Positions 8,749 through 63,884 of a stretch of 64,000 nt of DNA are shown here, piece after piece. The stretch covers positions 1 through 64,000 of the forward strand of contig JAFQEL010000033.1 in the NCBI GenBank assembly GCA_017399065.1, read 5' to 3'. Position 1 is the first letter of the stretch. Every line of letters begins with the position of its first letter. This stretch comes from Clostridia bacterium (GTDB lineage: Bacteria; Bacillota; Clostridia; Oscillospirales; Acutalibacteraceae). The translations under genes were made by a program, and so were the position numbers. Below the pieces are notes generated by a model that worked only from the letters and a program-made list of their open reading frames with translations, was not told where the DNA came from and ran no database searches.

Positions 8749-8959
8749 GCGATATATTTGCCTTGCGGCAAACGCGATATAATTTCAAATATTTGAAATT
8801 GCGATATAGGCTCGATAAATCTCGCCTGCGATATGATATAATCCCCTCGTATGCCGCAGCATATATCGCACGCAAAGCGTATATCGCATTGCGGAGCAAT
8901 ATATCGCAAATCCCTAAGGGATTTATATCGCGACAAAATTATCTTCAGATAATTTTGTC
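8749..8959. repeat. Palindrome array A, separator GCGATAT
   Basis: Left half: GCGATAT at 8749, 8774, 8801 and 8828 with palindromes TTTGCC/GGCAAA (8757-8772) and ATTTCAAAT/ATTTGAAAT (8782-8799) and a weak AGGC/GCCT pair between. Right half: the reverse complement ATATCGC at 8863, 8881, 8901 and 8925 with palindromes ACGC/GCGT (8870-8880), ATTGC/GCAAT (8888-8900), AAATCCC/GGGATTT (8908-8924) and GACAAAATTATC/GATAATTTTGTC (8932-8959). The last palindrome overlaps the leuS stop; the left end touches the GH43 ribosome site. No reading frame. Confidence 0.85.
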
Positions 8960-20070: not shown

Positions 20071-20158
20071 CTTTTTATCCCTACTGTGTTGTATATTCTT
20101 TTTTGATCTATTCGGTGCTCTGTGATGGCAACGTTTCTCGGTGCTGCTATGTTGCGGC

Positions 20159-20371
20159 GTATATCCGCTTTATTGAGGTATTTGGTGTGTGCTTCACACC
20201 TTTTTTGTGGCTTGAACTTTTTCTCGTGGCCACTCTTTCCTTGCGTATATCCGTTTTATTGAGGTATTTGGTGTGTGCTTCACACCTTTTTTGTGGCTTG
20301 AACTTTTTCTCGTGGCCACTCTTTCCTTGCGTATATCCGTTTTATTGAGGTATTTGGTGTGTGCTTCACAC
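20159..20371 (+). repeat. 86-bp tandem repeat containing terminator-like hairpins
   Basis: Units start at 20159, 20245 and 20331 (GTATATCCG), the third being partial. The units are almost identical. Each full unit holds the hairpin GGTGTG/CACACC with loop TGCTT followed by TTTTTT, a terminator reading on the plus strand. Confidence 0.85.
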
Positions 20372-46644: not shown

Positions 46645-46652
46645 AAGTTTTA

Positions 46653-46750
46653 CCTTATCTTCCGGTTTTCACCGCAGGATTTAACACCTTGCATTAAACG
46701 CAGGTTGTCGGGCTTCATCGGGCCTGTTCCCTCAGCCGCTCTTAATAAGG
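46653..46750 (-). ncRNA. SAM-I (S-box) riboswitch
   Basis: The minus strand shows the S-box core: P1 arms CCTTAT/ATAAGG, AAGAGCGGCTGAGGGAACAG, GGCCCGATGAAGCCCG, GCAACC-type GACAACC, the AAGGTGTTAAATCC segment and GAAAACCGGAAGATAAG at the 3' end. It lies 60 bp before metK, with the terminator between. Confidence 0.95.
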
Positions 46751-46771
46751 GGTTATTCAGTTTGCTTGTGT

Positions 46772-55155: not shown

Positions 55156-55197
55156 AACTTCACTTCTTTTTATTGCAATTCACTTTAAAAATGCTAT

Positions 55198-55246
55198 TAC
55201 CTCCTTTAAAAAGGAGGTGGCACGGCATCAGCCGTGACAGAGGATT
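55198..55246. repeat. Double-hairpin dispersed repeat, copy 4 (inverted)
   Basis: Opposite orientation to copy 5: stem ACCTCCTTT/AAAGGAGGT, then GCACGGC/GCCGTGAC, then GAGGAT. It lies between mnmG and mnmE. Confidence 0.65.
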
Positions 55247-55272
55247 AAAAAATTAAAAGTTGGTTTATTCAA

Positions 55273-55328
55273 CAATCCTCAGTCAAAATCGCAAGCGATT
55301 TCGACAGCTCCTTTCAAAAGGAGCTTTT
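55273..55328. repeat. Double-hairpin dispersed repeat, copy 5
   Basis: CCTCAGTC, stem AAATCGC/GCGATTT, then stem AGCTCCTTT/AAAGGAGCT and TTTT. Divergent arms, same layout. Together with copy 4 it forms an inverted pair. Confidence 0.6.
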
Positions 55329-55354
55329 AATAATCAATATTACGCTTTTTATTA

Positions 55355-56722
55355 TTATTTACCTACGCAAAAGCGTGAGAATACTTCGTTGATTACCGCA
55401 TCCGTTGCTTTTTCGCCCGTAAGCGTGAGAAGCTCGTTGATTGCGGAGTCTGTGCTGACGGTTACGGCATCGAGTGTCATATTCATCTCGAGTGCTGAAA
55501 TTGCCTCACGTATGCAGTCTGCCGCCTTTTCACAGCAGAGACGTTGCCTTTCATTAGCAAGCAGTGCCGCAGATGTATCAACACTGTTTGTGCCGAGTGC
55601 CGATTCAACAGCTTCTGCCAATTTTTCGGCACCCTTACCGTCTTTTGCACTGATGTAAACAATATGCTTGAAATTATCAAGCACGGACAAATCAAACTTT
55701 GGCTCAAGGTCATCTTTATTTATGACAGCAACTGCGCATTTATTTTTACAAAGCTCAAGCACAGCTTTGTCTTCGTTATCAAATTCACGGGATAAATCAA
55801 ACACAGCAAGCACAAGTGCCGCCCTCTCTACTCTGCCTACAGCAAAGTCAACACCGATTTTTTCTACCTCGTTGCCTGTTTCTCTTATTCCTGCGGTATC
55901 GGCAAGGTGAAGCACTACGTTGCCTAAGCGTACCGTATCCTCAACAACGTCACGTGTTGTGCCTGCAATATCGGTAACAATAGAGCGTCTGAAGCCTGCA
56001 AGGAAATTCATAAGTGTTGATTTGCCGACATTCGGCTTACCTGCAATTACCGTATCCACACCTTCGGTTATCGCTCTGCCTGCATCGTAATTATTCAGCA
56101 GACTTTCTATTTCGGAAAGGACATTTTTATAATCAGCAAGTAATTTATCTGTTGAAATTTCCTCAATTTCATCATCAGGATAGTCAACCCACGCCGCAAG
56201 ATAGGCAGAATCCGTGATAAGAGTCTGTGCGGCGGCAATAATCTTTTTGCTCAGAGCACCCTCAAGCGCTGTCATAGCGGCACCTGCACTCTGTTCACCT
56301 TGTGCGGAAATAAGGCTCATAACCGCCTCCGCCTTGGTAAGGTCGAGCTTACCATTTAAGAAAGCACGCTTTGTGAATTCGCCCGGTGCGGCAGGCAAGG
56401 CACCTGCGGCAAGTACTGCACGCAAAACACGGCTTACAACATAGACACCGCCGTGGCACGAAATCTCGGCAACATCCTCGCCCGTATAGCTGTGAGGTGC
56501 GCGAAAAACAAGCAAAACAGCCTCATCTATTGCTTTGTCGCCGTCGTAAACAATACCGTGTGCGGCAGTGTAGCCTTTCATATCGGCAACAATTTTCTTT
56601 CCCGACGGTACAAAAATTTTTGAAACAATATCAACTGCTTCGTCGCCGGATATACGGATTACACCGATACCGCCTGCTGCTACGGGAGTTGAGATTGCGG
56701 CAACCGTAGTTGAGTTTTTCAT
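55355..56722 (-). CDS. mnmE: tRNA modification GTPase MnmE
   Basis: Partner of MnmG in tRNA wobble-uridine modification; potassium-dependent GTPase of 455 residues. The N-terminal tetrahydrofolate domain has AISTPVAAGGIGVIRISG, the GTPase has GKPNVGKST (about 220-228), DIAGTTRD and NKDD, and the protein ends with the catalytic CVGK. The ATG at 56722 has AGAGGTG upstream, so two in-frame ATG/AAG codons before it are excluded. The leader of about 300 nt is palindrome array B. Confidence 0.97.
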   Translation of the reverse strand: MKNSTTVAAISTPVAAGGIGVIRISGDEAVDIVSKIFVPSGKKIVADMKGYTAAHGIVYDGDKAIDEAVLLVFRAPHSYTGEDVAEISCHGGVYVVSRVLRAVLAAGALPAAPGEFTKRAFLNGKLDLTKAEAVMSLISAQGEQSAGAAMTALEGALSKKIIAAAQTLITDSAYLAAWVDYPDDEIEEISTDKLLADYKNVLSEIESLLNNYDAGRAITEGVDTVIAGKPNVGKSTLMNFLAGFRRSIVTDIAGTTRDVVEDTVRLGNVVLHLADTAGIRETGNEVEKIGVDFAVGRVERAALVLAVFDLSREFDNEDKAVLELCKNKCAVAVINKDDLEPKFDLSVLDNFKHIVYISAKDGKGAEKLAEAVESALGTNSVDTSAALLANERQRLCCEKAADCIREAISALEMNMTLDAVTVSTDSAINELLTLTGEKATDAVINEVFSRFCVGK

Positions 56723-56740
56723 GCTTTTCACCTCTTAAAA

Positions 56741-57009
56741 TGAAATGATTTATCATTTCAAATCATGTTGCAACGCAACAAATCATGGCTTCAAGCCAAA
56801 TCATGCGACAGCAAATCATTTTTAATACCTCAATTAAGCCGCTATTCTATCAAGTGTTAAAACACATCGAGGAAGCATTAACCTCTTTCTTTGTGTTTTC
56901 ATTTTATGAGTTGCCTTACGGCATGATTTGATTTCTTTGAAATCATGATTTGCAAAATTTCATTTTGCGTGATTTGCGTTTTTACAAAACGCATTTGTTA
57001 CTTCGTAAC
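56741..57009. repeat. Palindrome array B, separator AAATCAT
   Basis: Left half: AAATCAT or AATCAT at 56761, 56780, 56798 and 56813, separating TGAAATGAT/ATCATTTCA (56741-56760), GTTGC/GCAAC (56767-56779), GGCT/AGCC (56787-56797) and a short GC/GC pair. A centre of about 92 bp has no array motif. Right half: ATGATTT at 56923 and 56945 and GTGATTT at 56969, separating TGCC/GGCA (56912-56923), GATTTC/GAAATC (56930-56944), GCAAAAT/ATTTTGC (56952-56968), GCGTTTT/AAAACGC (56976-56992) and GTTAC/GTAAC (56997-57009). It is the mnmE leader. Confidence 0.85.
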
Positions 57010-57027
57010 ATAATTATACAAATATAT

Positions 57028-57056
57028 ATTATATAAAAAAATTTGAATAATTGCAA
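57028..57056 (-). promoter_or_regulatory. sigmaA promoter of mnmE-mnmG-rsmG
   Basis: Minus-strand TTGCAA, 17 bp, TATAAT. The predicted transcript would begin just before array B and include it. Confidence 0.6.
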
Positions 57057-57184: not shown

Positions 57185-58615
57185 ATGACATTAAAAGAAA
57201 AAACGCAGCGTGCCGCTGCGTTGGCAGTACTTGAGCCGCTGATTAAATACATCAAAAAAAATCCGCAGGATAATTTAGTAAAGCTGGTTGACGCAGTACA
57301 GCGTTTTGCCGGTCCTTCTTTCCCTGCAAAGAATTTTGACAAAATCCGTGAGGGTGCGGCTGACCCTGATAACGTATATTCAAAGCTCCTTATCCGTGCA
57401 ATCAATGACCTTCACCCCGACGTATTAAACGGTATGGCTATGGCTCTCGGTCTCGGCGTTGCCGCAGGCACAAAGAAAGTAAGAGAAAACCGTGAGAAAT
57501 ATCACTGCAATATTCCCTTTATTACTCTCATTGACCCGACAAGCGCCTGCAACCTCAAGTGTAAGGGCTGCTGGTCTGCTGAGTACGGTCACAAGCTCCG
57601 CCTCACTTATGAGGAGATGGAGTCAATTGTTGAGCAGGGCAGAGAGCTCGGCACTCACCTTTATATGTTTACAGGCGGTGAGCCCCTTATCTGTAAAAAA
57701 GAAATTCTTAAGCTCTGCGAAAAATTCCCGCAGTGTGCTTTCCTTGCATACACAAACGCAACTCTTGTTGATCAGGAGTTCTGTGATGACCTTAGGCGTG
57801 TAGGCAACCTTGCACTTGCAATCAGTATCGAGGGCGATGAAGAGAGCAATGACTTCCGCCGTGGTGACGGTGCATACAAGACCTCTATCGAGGCTATGGA
57901 GCTTCTCAAGAAGAACGGCTGTATGTTCGGTATTTCCGTTTGTTATACAAGCAAAAATATTTACTCCGTTACAAGTGACGAATTCCTTGACGATATGATT
58001 GATAAAGGCGTTATGTTCGGCCTTTATTTCAACTATATGCCCCTTGGTAAGGGTGCTCTGCCCGAGCTTATTCCCGACCCTGAGCAGAGAAAATATATGT
58101 ACAAGCGTATACGCGACCTGCGTAACTCAAAAACCGGTAAATCGATGTTTATCATGGATTTTCAGGGTGACGGCGAATATGTCGGTGGCTGTATCGCAGG
58201 CGGCAGAAATTACTTCCATATCAACTCTGCAGGCGATATTGAGCCCTGTGTTTTCATTCACTTCTCCGACTCAAATATCCGCACTCACACTCTGCTTGAG
58301 GCATTGCAGAATCCGCTCTTTATGTCGTTCTACAAAAATCAGCCGTTTAACGACAACCATATGAGACCTTGTCCGATGCTCGAAAATCCCGATTATCTTT
58401 GTAAGATGGTCAAAGAAACCGGTGCTAAGTCAACCGACCTTATCGACCAGGAGTCTGCAGAGGATTTATGCGCAAAGTGCAGAAAGTTTGCTGCAGAGTG
58501 GGCACCCGTTGCAGAAGAGGTCTGGAATTCCACACCGCACAAGCCCAGTAAAACCTACTACTACCGTGATACTCCCGAAGGTAAGGCGGAAGCAGCAAAA
58601 AAGAATAACGAATAA
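57185..58615 (+). CDS. Radical SAM protein with SPASM-like C-terminus
   Basis: A 476-residue enzyme that cleaves SAM with a [4Fe-4S] cluster to start radical chemistry. The cluster motif CNLKCKGC at about residues 120-127 is followed by YMFTGGEPL (GGEP motif) at about 160. The C-terminal part holds GGCIAGGRNYFHINSAGDIEPC and further cysteines (CPML, LCK, LCAKC), matching auxiliary cluster ligands of SPASM-type proteins. About 110 residues precede the radical core as a helical N-terminal domain. No precursor peptide or maturation gene is visible, so the substrate is unknown. AAGGAG precedes the ATG and a terminator follows the gene. Confidence 0.88.
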   Translation: MTLKEKTQRAAALAVLEPLIKYIKKNPQDNLVKLVDAVQRFAGPSFPAKNFDKIREGAADPDNVYSKLLIRAINDLHPDVLNGMAMALGLGVAAGTKKVRENREKYHCNIPFITLIDPTSACNLKCKGCWSAEYGHKLRLTYEEMESIVEQGRELGTHLYMFTGGEPLICKKEILKLCEKFPQCAFLAYTNATLVDQEFCDDLRRVGNLALAISIEGDEESNDFRRGDGAYKTSIEAMELLKKNGCMFGISVCYTSKNIYSVTSDEFLDDMIDKGVMFGLYFNYMPLGKGALPELIPDPEQRKYMYKRIRDLRNSKTGKSMFIMDFQGDGEYVGGCIAGGRNYFHINSAGDIEPCVFIHFSDSNIRTHTLLEALQNPLFMSFYKNQPFNDNHMRPCPMLENPDYLCKMVKETGAKSTDLIDQESAEDLCAKCRKFAAEWAPVAEEVWNSTPHKPSKTYYYRDTPEGKAEAAKKNNE

Positions 58616-58813: not shown

Positions 58814-58967
58814 AGTGATATTGCAAATTAAAATTTGCAGTGATATTTTTGATAAATCAAAAGTGATATTGAAGCCTCGCGGCTTCAGTGTTATTTTATT
58901 CGCTTAAAACTGTCCGAAGGACAATATAACTATGCACGGCATAATATCACTGCGAAGCAATATCACT
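58814..58967. repeat. Palindrome array C, separator AGTGATATT
   Basis: Left half: AGTGATATT at 58814, 58839 and 58862 and AGTGTTATT at 58887, separating GCAAAT/ATTTGC (58823-58838), TTTGAT/ATCAAA (58848-58861) and GAAGCC/GGCTTC (58871-58886). Right half: a decayed ATATAACT at 58924, then AATATCACT at 58943 and 58959, separating TGTCC/GGACA (58911-58923), ATGC/GCAT (58932-58942) and GC/GC (58952-58958). Same architecture as arrays A and B, with a longer separator. Confidence 0.8.
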
Positions 58968-58988
58968 CGCCGCAAGACGAATAAAACT

Positions 58989-59014
58989 GCCGAGTGTCCT
59001 TACGAACACTCGGC
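58989..59014 (-). terminator. Terminator of XRE-family gene
   Basis: Stem GCCGAGTGT/ACACTCGGC followed by AGTTTTATT on minus. Confidence 0.7.
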
Positions 59015-61117: not shown

Positions 61118-62545
61118 ATGGTATACTTACATGGTCTGTACGGTAAAAATAACAGACCTTATAATGACTACTATCTCAACTGCGGATACCGCAGTGTTTT
61201 TAGTAAAGAAAAAAATTTTGAAAGAAAGGATGTGGACAGTATGGATCTCGTTTACCAGTTGTGGGAAAATGTAAAAGCAGAGCTGAAAAAAAATACTTCC
61301 GAAACAATTTATTCCGTATGGTTTCATGAGCTTGCACTTGAAAGCTTTGACGGCGAATCCGTTGTGCTGACGGATGACCCCTTCCGCTGTAAGATTATAA
61401 ACGAAAAATTTATTCCTCTGCTTGAAGAATGTTTTGAAAAAGTAATGGGCTTTAAAGTAAACGTATCTGTTATGCCCAAACAAGAAAAAATCAAAAAAGC
61501 CGAAACACCTAAAGAAAATAAAACCTTTGACACAAACGAGCTTACATTCGATAAATTTATAGTAGGTGACTCAAACAAATTTGCACACGCAGCCTCAGTT
61601 GCTGTTGCATCCGACCCCGGTAATACCTACAATCCTCTGTTTATTCACGGCAACTCAGGTCTCGGCAAAACTCACCTGCTCAATGCAATATGTAATGAAA
61701 TAATAAAAAATAATCCTGATGCATATATTATATATGTTCGCAGTGAAGATTTTATGAATGAACTCATAGATTATCTTCAGAATAAAAAAGATACATCTGT
61801 ATTCCATAACAAATACCGCAACGCTGACGTACTTCTTGTTGACGACGTACAGTTTATTGCAGGTAAAACCTCAACAGAGCTTGAATTTTTCCATACTTTT
61901 GATACACTCGTAAAGGCAAAGAGTCAGATCGTTCTTACCTCTGACCGTCCGCCGAAAGAAATGGCGACACTCGAAGAAAGACTGCGTAACAGATTTGAAA
62001 GCGGTCTTATTGCAGATATTCAGCCGCCTGATCTTGAAACAAGAGTGGCAATCATAAAAAGCAAGGCAGAATCACTCGGAATTGAAATTCCTTCTTCAAT
62101 TATTCTTTTTATTGCTGAAAAAATAAAGAGTAATATACGTCAGCTTGAAGGTGCTGTCAAAAAGATGAAGGCATATATTGAGCTTGGAGAAGATGCAAAC
62201 CTTGCAACGGCACAGAAAGCAATCCGCGATATTTTCAGCGAAGGTGACCCTACTCCCGTACTTATTGATAAAATCATCGATGAAGTTGCCCGTACATACG
62301 GCGTAACGGTTGCAGATATAAAGAGCAAAAAGCACGATGCAAAGTACGTATTTCCCCGTCATGTTGCTATGTATATTATACGTGAAATGACTCCGCTTAC
62401 CAATAAAAAAGTTGCAGAGCTCTTCGGTCTGAGTGACCATTCATCGGTAATGTATGCATATAAAAAGATATCAACCGACAGAGAAAATAATTATTCCTTA
62501 AAAACAATTATTGCAGACGTAATGAAGAACGTGCAGGCAAACTGA
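61118..62545 (+). CDS. dnaA: Chromosomal replication initiator DnaA, start uncertain
   Basis: Binds DnaA boxes and melts the origin. Domain I begins MDLVYQLWENVKAELKK, the ATPase domain III has NSGLGKTHLL (Walker A, about 135-144 counted from the second start) and LLVDDVQF, and domain IV ends with the DNA-reading HVAMYIIREMT and GLSDHSSVMYAYKKI. Two starts are possible. ATG at 61118 follows AAGGAGG 7 nt upstream and adds 41 residues (MVYLHGLYGKNNRPY onward) that resemble no DnaA I know. ATG at 61241 with AAAGGA gives the ordinary N-terminus, 434 residues. I list the longer frame but consider the second start more typical. Confidence 0.95.
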   Translation: MVYLHGLYGKNNRPYNDYYLNCGYRSVFSKEKNFERKDVDSMDLVYQLWENVKAELKKNTSETIYSVWFHELALESFDGESVVLTDDPFRCKIINEKFIPLLEECFEKVMGFKVNVSVMPKQEKIKKAETPKENKTFDTNELTFDKFIVGDSNKFAHAASVAVASDPGNTYNPLFIHGNSGLGKTHLLNAICNEIIKNNPDAYIIYVRSEDFMNELIDYLQNKKDTSVFHNKYRNADVLLVDDVQFIAGKTSTELEFFHTFDTLVKAKSQIVLTSDRPPKEMATLEERLRNRFESGLIADIQPPDLETRVAIIKSKAESLGIEIPSSIILFIAEKIKSNIRQLEGAVKKMKAYIELGEDANLATAQKAIRDIFSEGDPTPVLIDKIIDEVARTYGVTVADIKSKKHDAKYVFPRHVAMYIIREMTPLTNKKVAELFGLSDHSSVMYAYKKISTDRENNYSLKTIIADVMKNVQAN

Positions 62546-62777: not shown

Positions 62778-63884
62778 ATGAAAATTTATTGCGATACCGC
62801 TGTGCTCAGCGAAGCCTGCTTAAATGTTCAGAGAGCAGTTTCAAACAAAACAACAATTCCTGCCATCGAAGGTATCCTTATCAAAGCAATCGGTAACGAG
62901 CTGCTTCTTACAGGCTACGATCTTGAGGTAGGTATTACAACTTCTATCCCCTGCCGTGTTATCGAGCAGGGTGCAATTATCCTCAACGCAAGAATTCTCT
63001 GCGACATAGTCCGTAAAATTCCCGGCGAGCAGGTTTATATTGAAACAGACGAAAGACTTCTCGCAACTATCAGAGGCGGCGAAGCAGAGTATTCACTTAT
63101 CGGTATCGACGGTAACGAGTTCCCCGAGCTTCCTACAGTCAGCGGCGGCTATCCCGTTGTTGTTGGGCAGAAGCTTTTAAAGGATATGGTCCGTCAGACT
63201 ATATTTGCAGTCGCAGTAAATGACAGCAAGGTTGTTCATACAGGTGTAAAGTTTGAAGTTTCACAGAATATCATCAGACTTGTCGCTGTTGACGGCTCAC
63301 GTCTTGCAATGAGAACTGAGTCAATCAACTATATGGGCGATGAGCTGAGCTTCGTTGTACCTGCAAAAACTCTTAACGAAGTTACAAAGCTTATAGGAGA
63401 TGATGAAGAGACAGTTTCTCTCGGTGTCGGTAAGAGACATATTATATTTGAAATTGGCAATTACAGCATTGTTTCCCGTCTGCTTGACGGTGAATTCCTA
63501 AACTATAAGAATGCAATTCCGCCTACCTGCTCTGCAACAGCAATTGTCAACACACGTGAGATGATTGATAGTATTGACAGAACAAGCCTTATTATTACAG
63601 ATAAGTTCAAGAGTCCTGTAAGATTTATTTTTGACAGTGATATAGTCAGAATTTCATCCGTAACAGCTCTCGGTACTGCTAATGACAGCTTTGCCTGCAA
63701 ATATGAGGGCAATAAAATTGAAATCGGTTTCAATAATAAGCTTCTTCTTGATGCACTTAAGGTCTGCGATGCAGACGAAGTAAAAATTGAGCTCAACAGC
63801 GGCGCTGCACCTATTCTTATTCTGCCGACTCAGGGCGACAATTTCCTCTTCCTTATTCTTCCGATGAGATTTAAGAAGGACTGA
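62778..63884 (+). CDS. dnaN: DNA polymerase III beta subunit (sliding clamp)
   Basis: Ring-shaped processivity clamp of 368 residues that holds the replicative polymerase on DNA. Three clamp folds are present; family-typical parts are SRLLDGEFLNYKNAIP and the C-terminal LILPMRF. CGGAGG lies 10 nt before the ATG. It is read with dnaA away from the origin. Confidence 0.97.
   Translation: MKIYCDTAVLSEACLNVQRAVSNKTTIPAIEGILIKAIGNELLLTGYDLEVGITTSIPCRVIEQGAIILNARILCDIVRKIPGEQVYIETDERLLATIRGGEAEYSLIGIDGNEFPELPTVSGGYPVVVGQKLLKDMVRQTIFAVAVNDSKVVHTGVKFEVSQNIIRLVAVDGSRLAMRTESINYMGDELSFVVPAKTLNEVTKLIGDDEETVSLGVGKRHIIFEIGNYSIVSRLLDGEFLNYKNAIPPTCSATAIVNTREMIDSIDRTSLIITDKFKSPVRFIFDSDIVRISSVTALGTANDSFACKYEGNKIEIGFNNKLLLDALKVCDADEVKIELNSGAAPILILPTQGDNFLFLILPMRFKKD

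Follow-up and report, generated by a model that had tools for sequence, protein, structure and literature searches.

A dispersed array of mini-hairpins upstream of mnmE in a Clostridia genome: a candidate REPIN-like DNA element related in design to Gut-1

Excerpts of the literature on bacterial palindromic repeats describe REPINs as extragenic palindromes in inverted arrangement, which fold as single strands and whose movement is attributed to RAYT transposases (PMC3116915, PMC3733652, PMC8266576), with the constituent REP sequences carrying a GTAG or CGTC tag (PMC3733652). A different status has been accorded to Gut-1 (RF01706), whose Rfam alignment shows three hairpins joined by GUGAAAU and which Rfam classes as an sRNA; in the available part of the original description its authors rate it as certainly RNA, confined to the human gut and most likely an unattached non-coding RNA (PMC2864571), the only paper that we found in the open-access literature on Gut-1/RF01706 and on palindromic intergenic repeats in Ruminococcaceae. 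Here we analyze a string of hairpins upstream of the mnmE gene, array B, which is a relative of Gut-1 in design without being a member of it, and we consider it probable that this array is a dispersed, non-coding REPIN-like DNA element that acts via single-strand hairpins and a putative enzyme.

The window, i.e. the whole 64-kb stretch of DNA analyzed here, is part of contig C30 in a genome of 2.64 Mb, labelled G000. Within it array B (56740..57009) lies between mnmE (55355..56722, minus strand; NCBIfam TIGR00450), which starts at 56722, and a divergent radical-SAM gene at 57185. Based on sequence and folding, it is an inverted two-armed hairpin array, whose canonical orientation runs from H1 to H9. 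The left arm, on the plus strand, starts with ATG at 56740 and comprises the terminal hairpin H1 (GAAATGA-TTTA-TCATTTC, 56742..56759), for which 41 copies were compared, followed by H2 (GTTGC-AAC-GCAAC, 56767..56779), H3 (GGCT-TCA-AGCC, 56787..56797) and the mini-hairpin H4 (GC-GACA-GC, 56805..56812). The right arm, on the minus strand, comprises four hairpins, all delimited by sequence and the alignment of right arms: H5 (GCC-TTAC-GGC, 56913..56922, minus-strand loop GTAA), H6 (GATTTC-TTT-GAAATC, 56930..56944), H7 (GCAAAAT-TTC-ATTTTGC, 56952..56968, minus-strand loop GAA) and H8 (GCGTTTT-TAC-AAAACGC, 56976..56992, minus-strand loop GTA); the arm ends with CATT (56992-56995). A ninth hairpin at the outer end, H9 (GTTAC-TTC-GTAAC, 56997..57009, minus strand), is present at the mnmE locus in both G000 and the related genome G010 and is probably part of the element. 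Between the separators every segment is a hairpin. The sequence-only reading had assigned the separators AAATCAT to the left arm and ATGATTT to the right: this is exact for all four left separators (56760..56766, 56780..56786, 56798..56804 and 56813..56819) and for two on the right (56923..56929 and 56945..56951), but the other two right separators deviate, one being the degenerate ATGAGTT (56906..56912) and the other GTGATTT (56969..56975). Left and right separators are mutually complementary (AAATCAT/ATGATTT), and a single strand can thus adopt a ladder-like fold of four-way junctions, the kind of minimum-energy shape that is predicted for array B; the 277-nt element folded as DNA reaches z-scores of -5.65 and -6.36 on its two strands.

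The middle segment, earlier taken for 92 bp of unrelated DNA, is in fact 86 bp long (56820..56905) and is related to an independent repeat of 80-90 bp, which occurs in tandem elsewhere in the genome (e.g. G000:C43:15940-16187) and, after mnmE, at loci L020, L022 and L064. The same type of repeat is found inside other arrays in either orientation and is missing from some copies. A further 86-bp tandem repeat at 20157-20371 of the window (2.5 copies, 99 percent alike) has a TTTTATTGAGGTATT stretch in common with the middle repeat, a weak match.

Set against the known repeat systems, array B resembles the REP/REPIN/BIME sequences most closely: like them, as far as excerpts of the literature describe them, it is multicopy, extragenic and inverted, is predicted to fold as a single strand and varies between relatives (PMC3116915). 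Unlike them, it lacks the GTAG or CGTC tag, its constant element being AAATCAT (57 matches), carries 7-nt separators with many different hairpins per element, and shows no association with RAYT/Y1 genes over 147 genomes. By analogy, array B would work like a REPIN but should not be filed as one. It shares with MITEs its short size (here roughly 170-290 bp), the absence of coding capacity, inverted ends, many copies and a variable middle, but its ends are strings of hairpins rather than one long inverted repeat, and no autonomous partner was found for it. As in CRISPR loci, palindromic units are regularly spaced; however, in array B the separators are constant while the palindromes vary, the order of units is conserved and the arms are inverted; identical direct repeats with unique spacers, as in CRISPR, are not seen.

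Two other arrays in the window share this design. The claim that array B has the architecture of array A with a different separator was borne out, and a third array of that design, array C, was detected at 8749..8931, with the separators GCGATAT/ATATCGC. Array A (58815..58990) has the separators AGTGATATT/AATATCACT, and its right arm corresponds to a Gut-1 match at 58919-58989 on the minus strand, which at 51.1 bits reaches the gathering level; array C scores 38.4 bits, under the threshold of 50, and array B gives no match to the Gut-1 covariance model up to an E-value of 10. Gut-1, like array B, is a hairpin array with a conserved 7-nt separator, and in G000 (array A) and other genomes it makes up a single arm of an array with two; array B differs from it in its separator, its opposite arm polarity and its lack of a Gut-1 score. 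The succession of hairpins around a conserved separator is common to both, with AAATCAT in array B replacing ATTTCAC, the complement of GUGAAAU. The complementary-strand separators AAATCAT, ATATCAC, ATATCGC and ATTTCAC all fit the consensus AWWTCR, and arrays A, B and C together with Gut-1 constitute one superfamily, spread through a bacterial order. We observed 40 Gut-1 matches in G000, and the family is present in 77 of 147 relatives, with at least two copies in 67 of these. Most of the 29 Gut-1 loci that were scanned for separators have them in the two orientations no more than a few hundred bases apart, and two of the four inspected in full show both arms complete. Of the 147 genomes, 17 contain the C-type pattern, ATATCGCN{7,26}ATATCGC, at least ten times, with controls giving at most two matches per genome. 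In all 30 two-armed B arrays the arm bearing AWWTCR is the left one, as against three of 18 C arrays. Whereas the available part of the description presents Gut-1 as a non-coding RNA of the human gut (PMC2864571), in our data it is a repeat with multiple copies throughout an order, and its annotation as an sRNA would in our opinion deserve review.

A BLAST search with array B recovered copies at many sites in the genome. A search pattern whose gap was set to exactly 9 nt was too narrow. Over the 2.64 Mb of the genome, AAATCATGN{4,18}CAAATCA matches 57 times and its reversed-pattern control not once; grouped by position, these constitute about 20 arrays, and hence about 19 sites besides mnmE. 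Seventeen of the 20 are concentrated on six contigs (C33, C18, C34, C5, C1 and C2), which amount to 319 of 2642 kb, or 12 percent of the total; one B array is in the window. The window also encodes what are presumably a dnaA-like protein (61118-62545) and a sliding-clamp-like protein (62778-63884). Across 147 related genomes the B pattern is abundant only in G001 (38 matches), G010 (104) and G097 (91), with minor counts in G115 (seven) and G066 (four) and a control total of four over all 147. A strict scan for units yielded 274 of them in 892 kb of three genomes, making up 58 arrays, and none in one dinucleotide shuffle of that DNA. Array B is therefore real and lies far beyond chance. G097 belongs to another family of the same order (f4); in its 91 AAATCAT-separated matches the hairpins are different, many of them with GCGAAGC, and its genus-mate G073 has no match. 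This distribution suggests either an independent origin or a transfer of the B-type arrays of G097. Compared with crude ORF calls, 18 of 26 arrays in G000 lie between ORFs, six overlap mostly short ORFs and two have no called neighbor on one side; 14 of the 18 intergenic ones lie between co-directional genes. Searched against phage and plasmid records, the array B element gave no match; the A-type pattern has no match in IMG/VR, and the nine IMG/VR contigs that match the B pattern each do so at one isolated site with no array in the stretch inspected around it, for which reason we attribute them to chance. Viral or plasmid carriage was accordingly rejected.

We then compared orthologous sites between G000 and the genomes G001 and G010. 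Among 12 B arrays of G010 whose flanks map to G000, five correspond to a B array, three to a C-type array and four to no array, and among 11 that map to G001 there are one B, two C and eight without an array; conversely, eight B arrays of G000 map to G010 (five B, three none) and six to G001 (two B, four none), all these figures pertaining to contigs picked for carrying arrays, with unmapped arrays left out. One further, mixed B/C array of G000 maps to a mixed array. Some of the sites without an array keep remnants, either a lone H1 hairpin or the outer hairpins joined via AAATCATGATTT; at others there are internal deletions with their ends in or near separators; and at two sites (one between G000 and G010, the other between G001 and G010) the orientation is flipped between species, once with the same outer junction. 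Arrays hence appear, vanish, shrink, invert and exchange type at orthologous sites, with the C type standing in one species at places that in another are taken by the B type. Some elements hold their place across species, which is compatible with a host function. The ends of the element read ATG...CAT; no target-site duplication is readable in nine comparisons of filled and empty sites or in further side-by-side ones, in which the flanks are too diverged or the empty sites contain remnants.

The units themselves carry a strand-specific signature. We assembled 280 distinct units (89 of type A, 101 of type B and 90 of type C) from three genomes, 30 Gut-1 loci of the genome itself and 29 Gut-1 loci of relatives, taking them between exact separators, as one-mismatch separators let in chance segments for type C. 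On the AWWTCR strand G..A loops prevail over T..C loops by 163 to five, and G.A mismatches over T.C mismatches by 84 to six (32 to one for tandem mismatches), while G.T and A.C wobbles are balanced (27 versus 28), under folding rules that score G.T like A.C and G.A like T.C and could still bias the classes; as the units are related by descent, binomial p-values for these counts overstate their independence and are not to be taken literally. The commonest G..A loops are GAA, GCA, GTA, GCAA and GTAA, and the smallest unit of the set is GCGAAGC, known as the sequence of an extraordinarily stable DNA mini-hairpin. In the stems 1444 of 1602 counted cells are Watson-Crick pairs. In the aligned right arms of 27 copies 97.5 percent of cells remain paired, and we counted 15 double-sided covarying cells versus 4.6 in shuffled alignments, none of 500 shuffles being as high. 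AWWTCR lies on the plus strand of one arm but on the minus strand of its partner, and 34 of the 50 arrays with two arms have G..A loops in each of them. Such loops thus occupy opposite strands within the same element, and a given transcript can display the favored form of one arm at most. Because of these opposite-strand loops and the absent preference for G.U, the sequences favor structured single-stranded DNA over RNA.

These observations bear on the possibility of an RNA-level element, be it a Gut-1-type non-coding RNA or an intercistronic structure that stabilizes or ends transcripts, which has been copied genome-wide for that use. GNRA loops are common in the arrays, and they are good RNA loops too. 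The placement of most intergenic arrays between co-directional genes would also suit such a role, and when the H1 stems are taken by themselves, all wobble cells are G.T (five versus no A.C), which RNA would give as well. The Rfam listing as an sRNA and, in the accessible part of their paper, the authors' own rating of Gut-1 as certainly RNA speak for it (PMC2864571). However, one transcript would carry the favored loops and mismatches of only one arm, the wobbles overall show no preference for G.U over A.C, the strand modelled in Rfam bears the complement of the favored loops, and turnover between species is high, in light of which we regard an RNA-level function as unlikely. Still less probable is a passive or structural DNA, with palindromes kept perfect by template switching and with or without a role in binding nucleoid or topology proteins. 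The predominance of Watson-Crick pairs in the stems is what palindrome correction would yield, and the crowding of arrays on a small part of the genome suggests local spread, but template correction predicts neither strand-specific G.A mismatches and G..A loops nor a fixed order of units and separators across species.

With respect to the mnmE copy itself, the predicted promoter is indeed present (TTGCAA-17-TATAAT, 57028..57056, minus strand), and this sigma-70-type sequence is conserved in all eight leaders compared, its position being kept and its spacing being 16-17 bp. Array B lies between it and the ribosome site of mnmE (GAGGTG, 56729..56734, minus strand), seven bases from H1, so that the whole array would be in the 5' leader if this promoter is used. 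The proposal that it evolved there as a control of translation or decay gained no support. As to its presence in close relatives, a check that the sequence-only reading had advised, the array is found at mnmE in only two of 11 congeneric genomes, in full in G000 and in a shortened, degenerate form in G010, and is missing from the upstream stretch in the other nine, six of which, compared in detail, retain the promoter. The predicted leaders measure about 299 nt in G000, 151 nt in G010 and roughly 30-55 nt in the six without the array, with the lengths and openness being approximate for G003, G004, G005 and G008, whose gene starts derive from protein matches, and with no ribosome site picked in G006. 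Folding, likewise advised, gave a divided answer: a 333-nt leader stretch folds better than its shuffles (z -3.88), but the ribosome site is predicted to be no less open, its unpaired fraction being 0.51 in G000 with the full array versus 0.44 in G010 and 0.32 in G001. Sequestration of the ribosome site by the array is accordingly not predicted by folding. MnmE of G010 is 96 percent identical to that of G000, G001 has 86 percent and the other congeneric genomes at most 80 percent; the nearest named relative, the sheep-rectum MAG RGIG6285, likewise has 96 percent, with a leader identical to that of G010, and the two are probably one and the same genome. The host of array B is therefore probably an uncultured Clostridia bacterium from the gut of a ruminant. 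By parsimony on these identities, the array most likely arrived at mnmE after the split from G001. Given that the ribosome site is predicted to stay open, the array is most likely tolerated there, with any effect on mnmE expression being a side effect. A cis-regulatory RNA of the mnmE-mnmG-rsmG message, for which the position of the array between promoter and ribosome site and the folding of the leader may be adduced, is thus very improbable, the same element being found at about 19 unrelated places and being absent from mnmE in most congeners. The spacer between mnmE and mnmG (window 55160-55350) has another repeat, CCTCCTTT...AAAGGAGG, with internal hairpins; in G010 this spacer contains a B array and tandem middle repeats, and in G001 it is only short. 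Elsewhere in the window a SAM riboswitch (RF00162, 77.6 bits) is found at 46652-46751 on the minus strand.

Returning to the reading of array B as a REPIN-like DNA element, its copies consist of two arms in inverted orientation, in which mini-hairpins are strung together by a fixed separator, usually around an 86-bp middle. The hairpins would come into play once the AWWTCR strand of an arm is present as single-stranded DNA, in a manner similar to REPs and REPINs, and a putative enzyme of the host or of the element might recognize the separator together with the hairpin and move, copy or re-pair the arrays. The sequences themselves show the dispersal, the turnover and the strand bias, while the enzyme and the passage through single-stranded DNA are what we infer; our analysis recovered neither an enzyme nor any intermediate of excision or insertion. 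Judged by gene content, an IS200-type Y1 transposase is an improbable candidate for the mobilizing enzyme: the Y1 transposase family and Gut-1 occur together in 38 of 147 genomes, with 35.6 expected (Fisher p 0.51), and G097, with its 91 B matches, has no Y1 match. Three IS200-type (Y1) genes are present in G000, and the two RAYT-like ones among them are associated with a different, GTAGGGG-type repeat; with this association and the lack of co-occurrence with Gut-1, we rejected the Y1 transposase as the current motor, though an ancestral Y1 partner is conceivable. REP sequences of the GTAGGGGCG type lie within or next to the RAYT-like Y1 genes (L145 1381-1956 and L146 1462-1947), and they apparently extend even into the reading frame.

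A broader proposal, which we advance tentatively, is that Gut-1 and its relatives, including array B, may represent a hitherto unrecognized class of mobile DNA that a non-Y1 enzyme has spread through the order and that is built of single-strand mini-hairpins in strings, the two arms having their sheared G.A closures on opposite strands; the RNA in Rfam would then be one arm on its less favored strand. If this is true, a family curated as a certain non-coding RNA would be a DNA repeat, and its annotation would have to be corrected in about half of the relatives examined. The strand-specific motifs, together with species pairs that have filled, empty and inverted sites, make the DNA reading testable. 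If correct, that reading would further point to an undiscovered enzyme by which common gut bacteria process structured single-stranded DNA.
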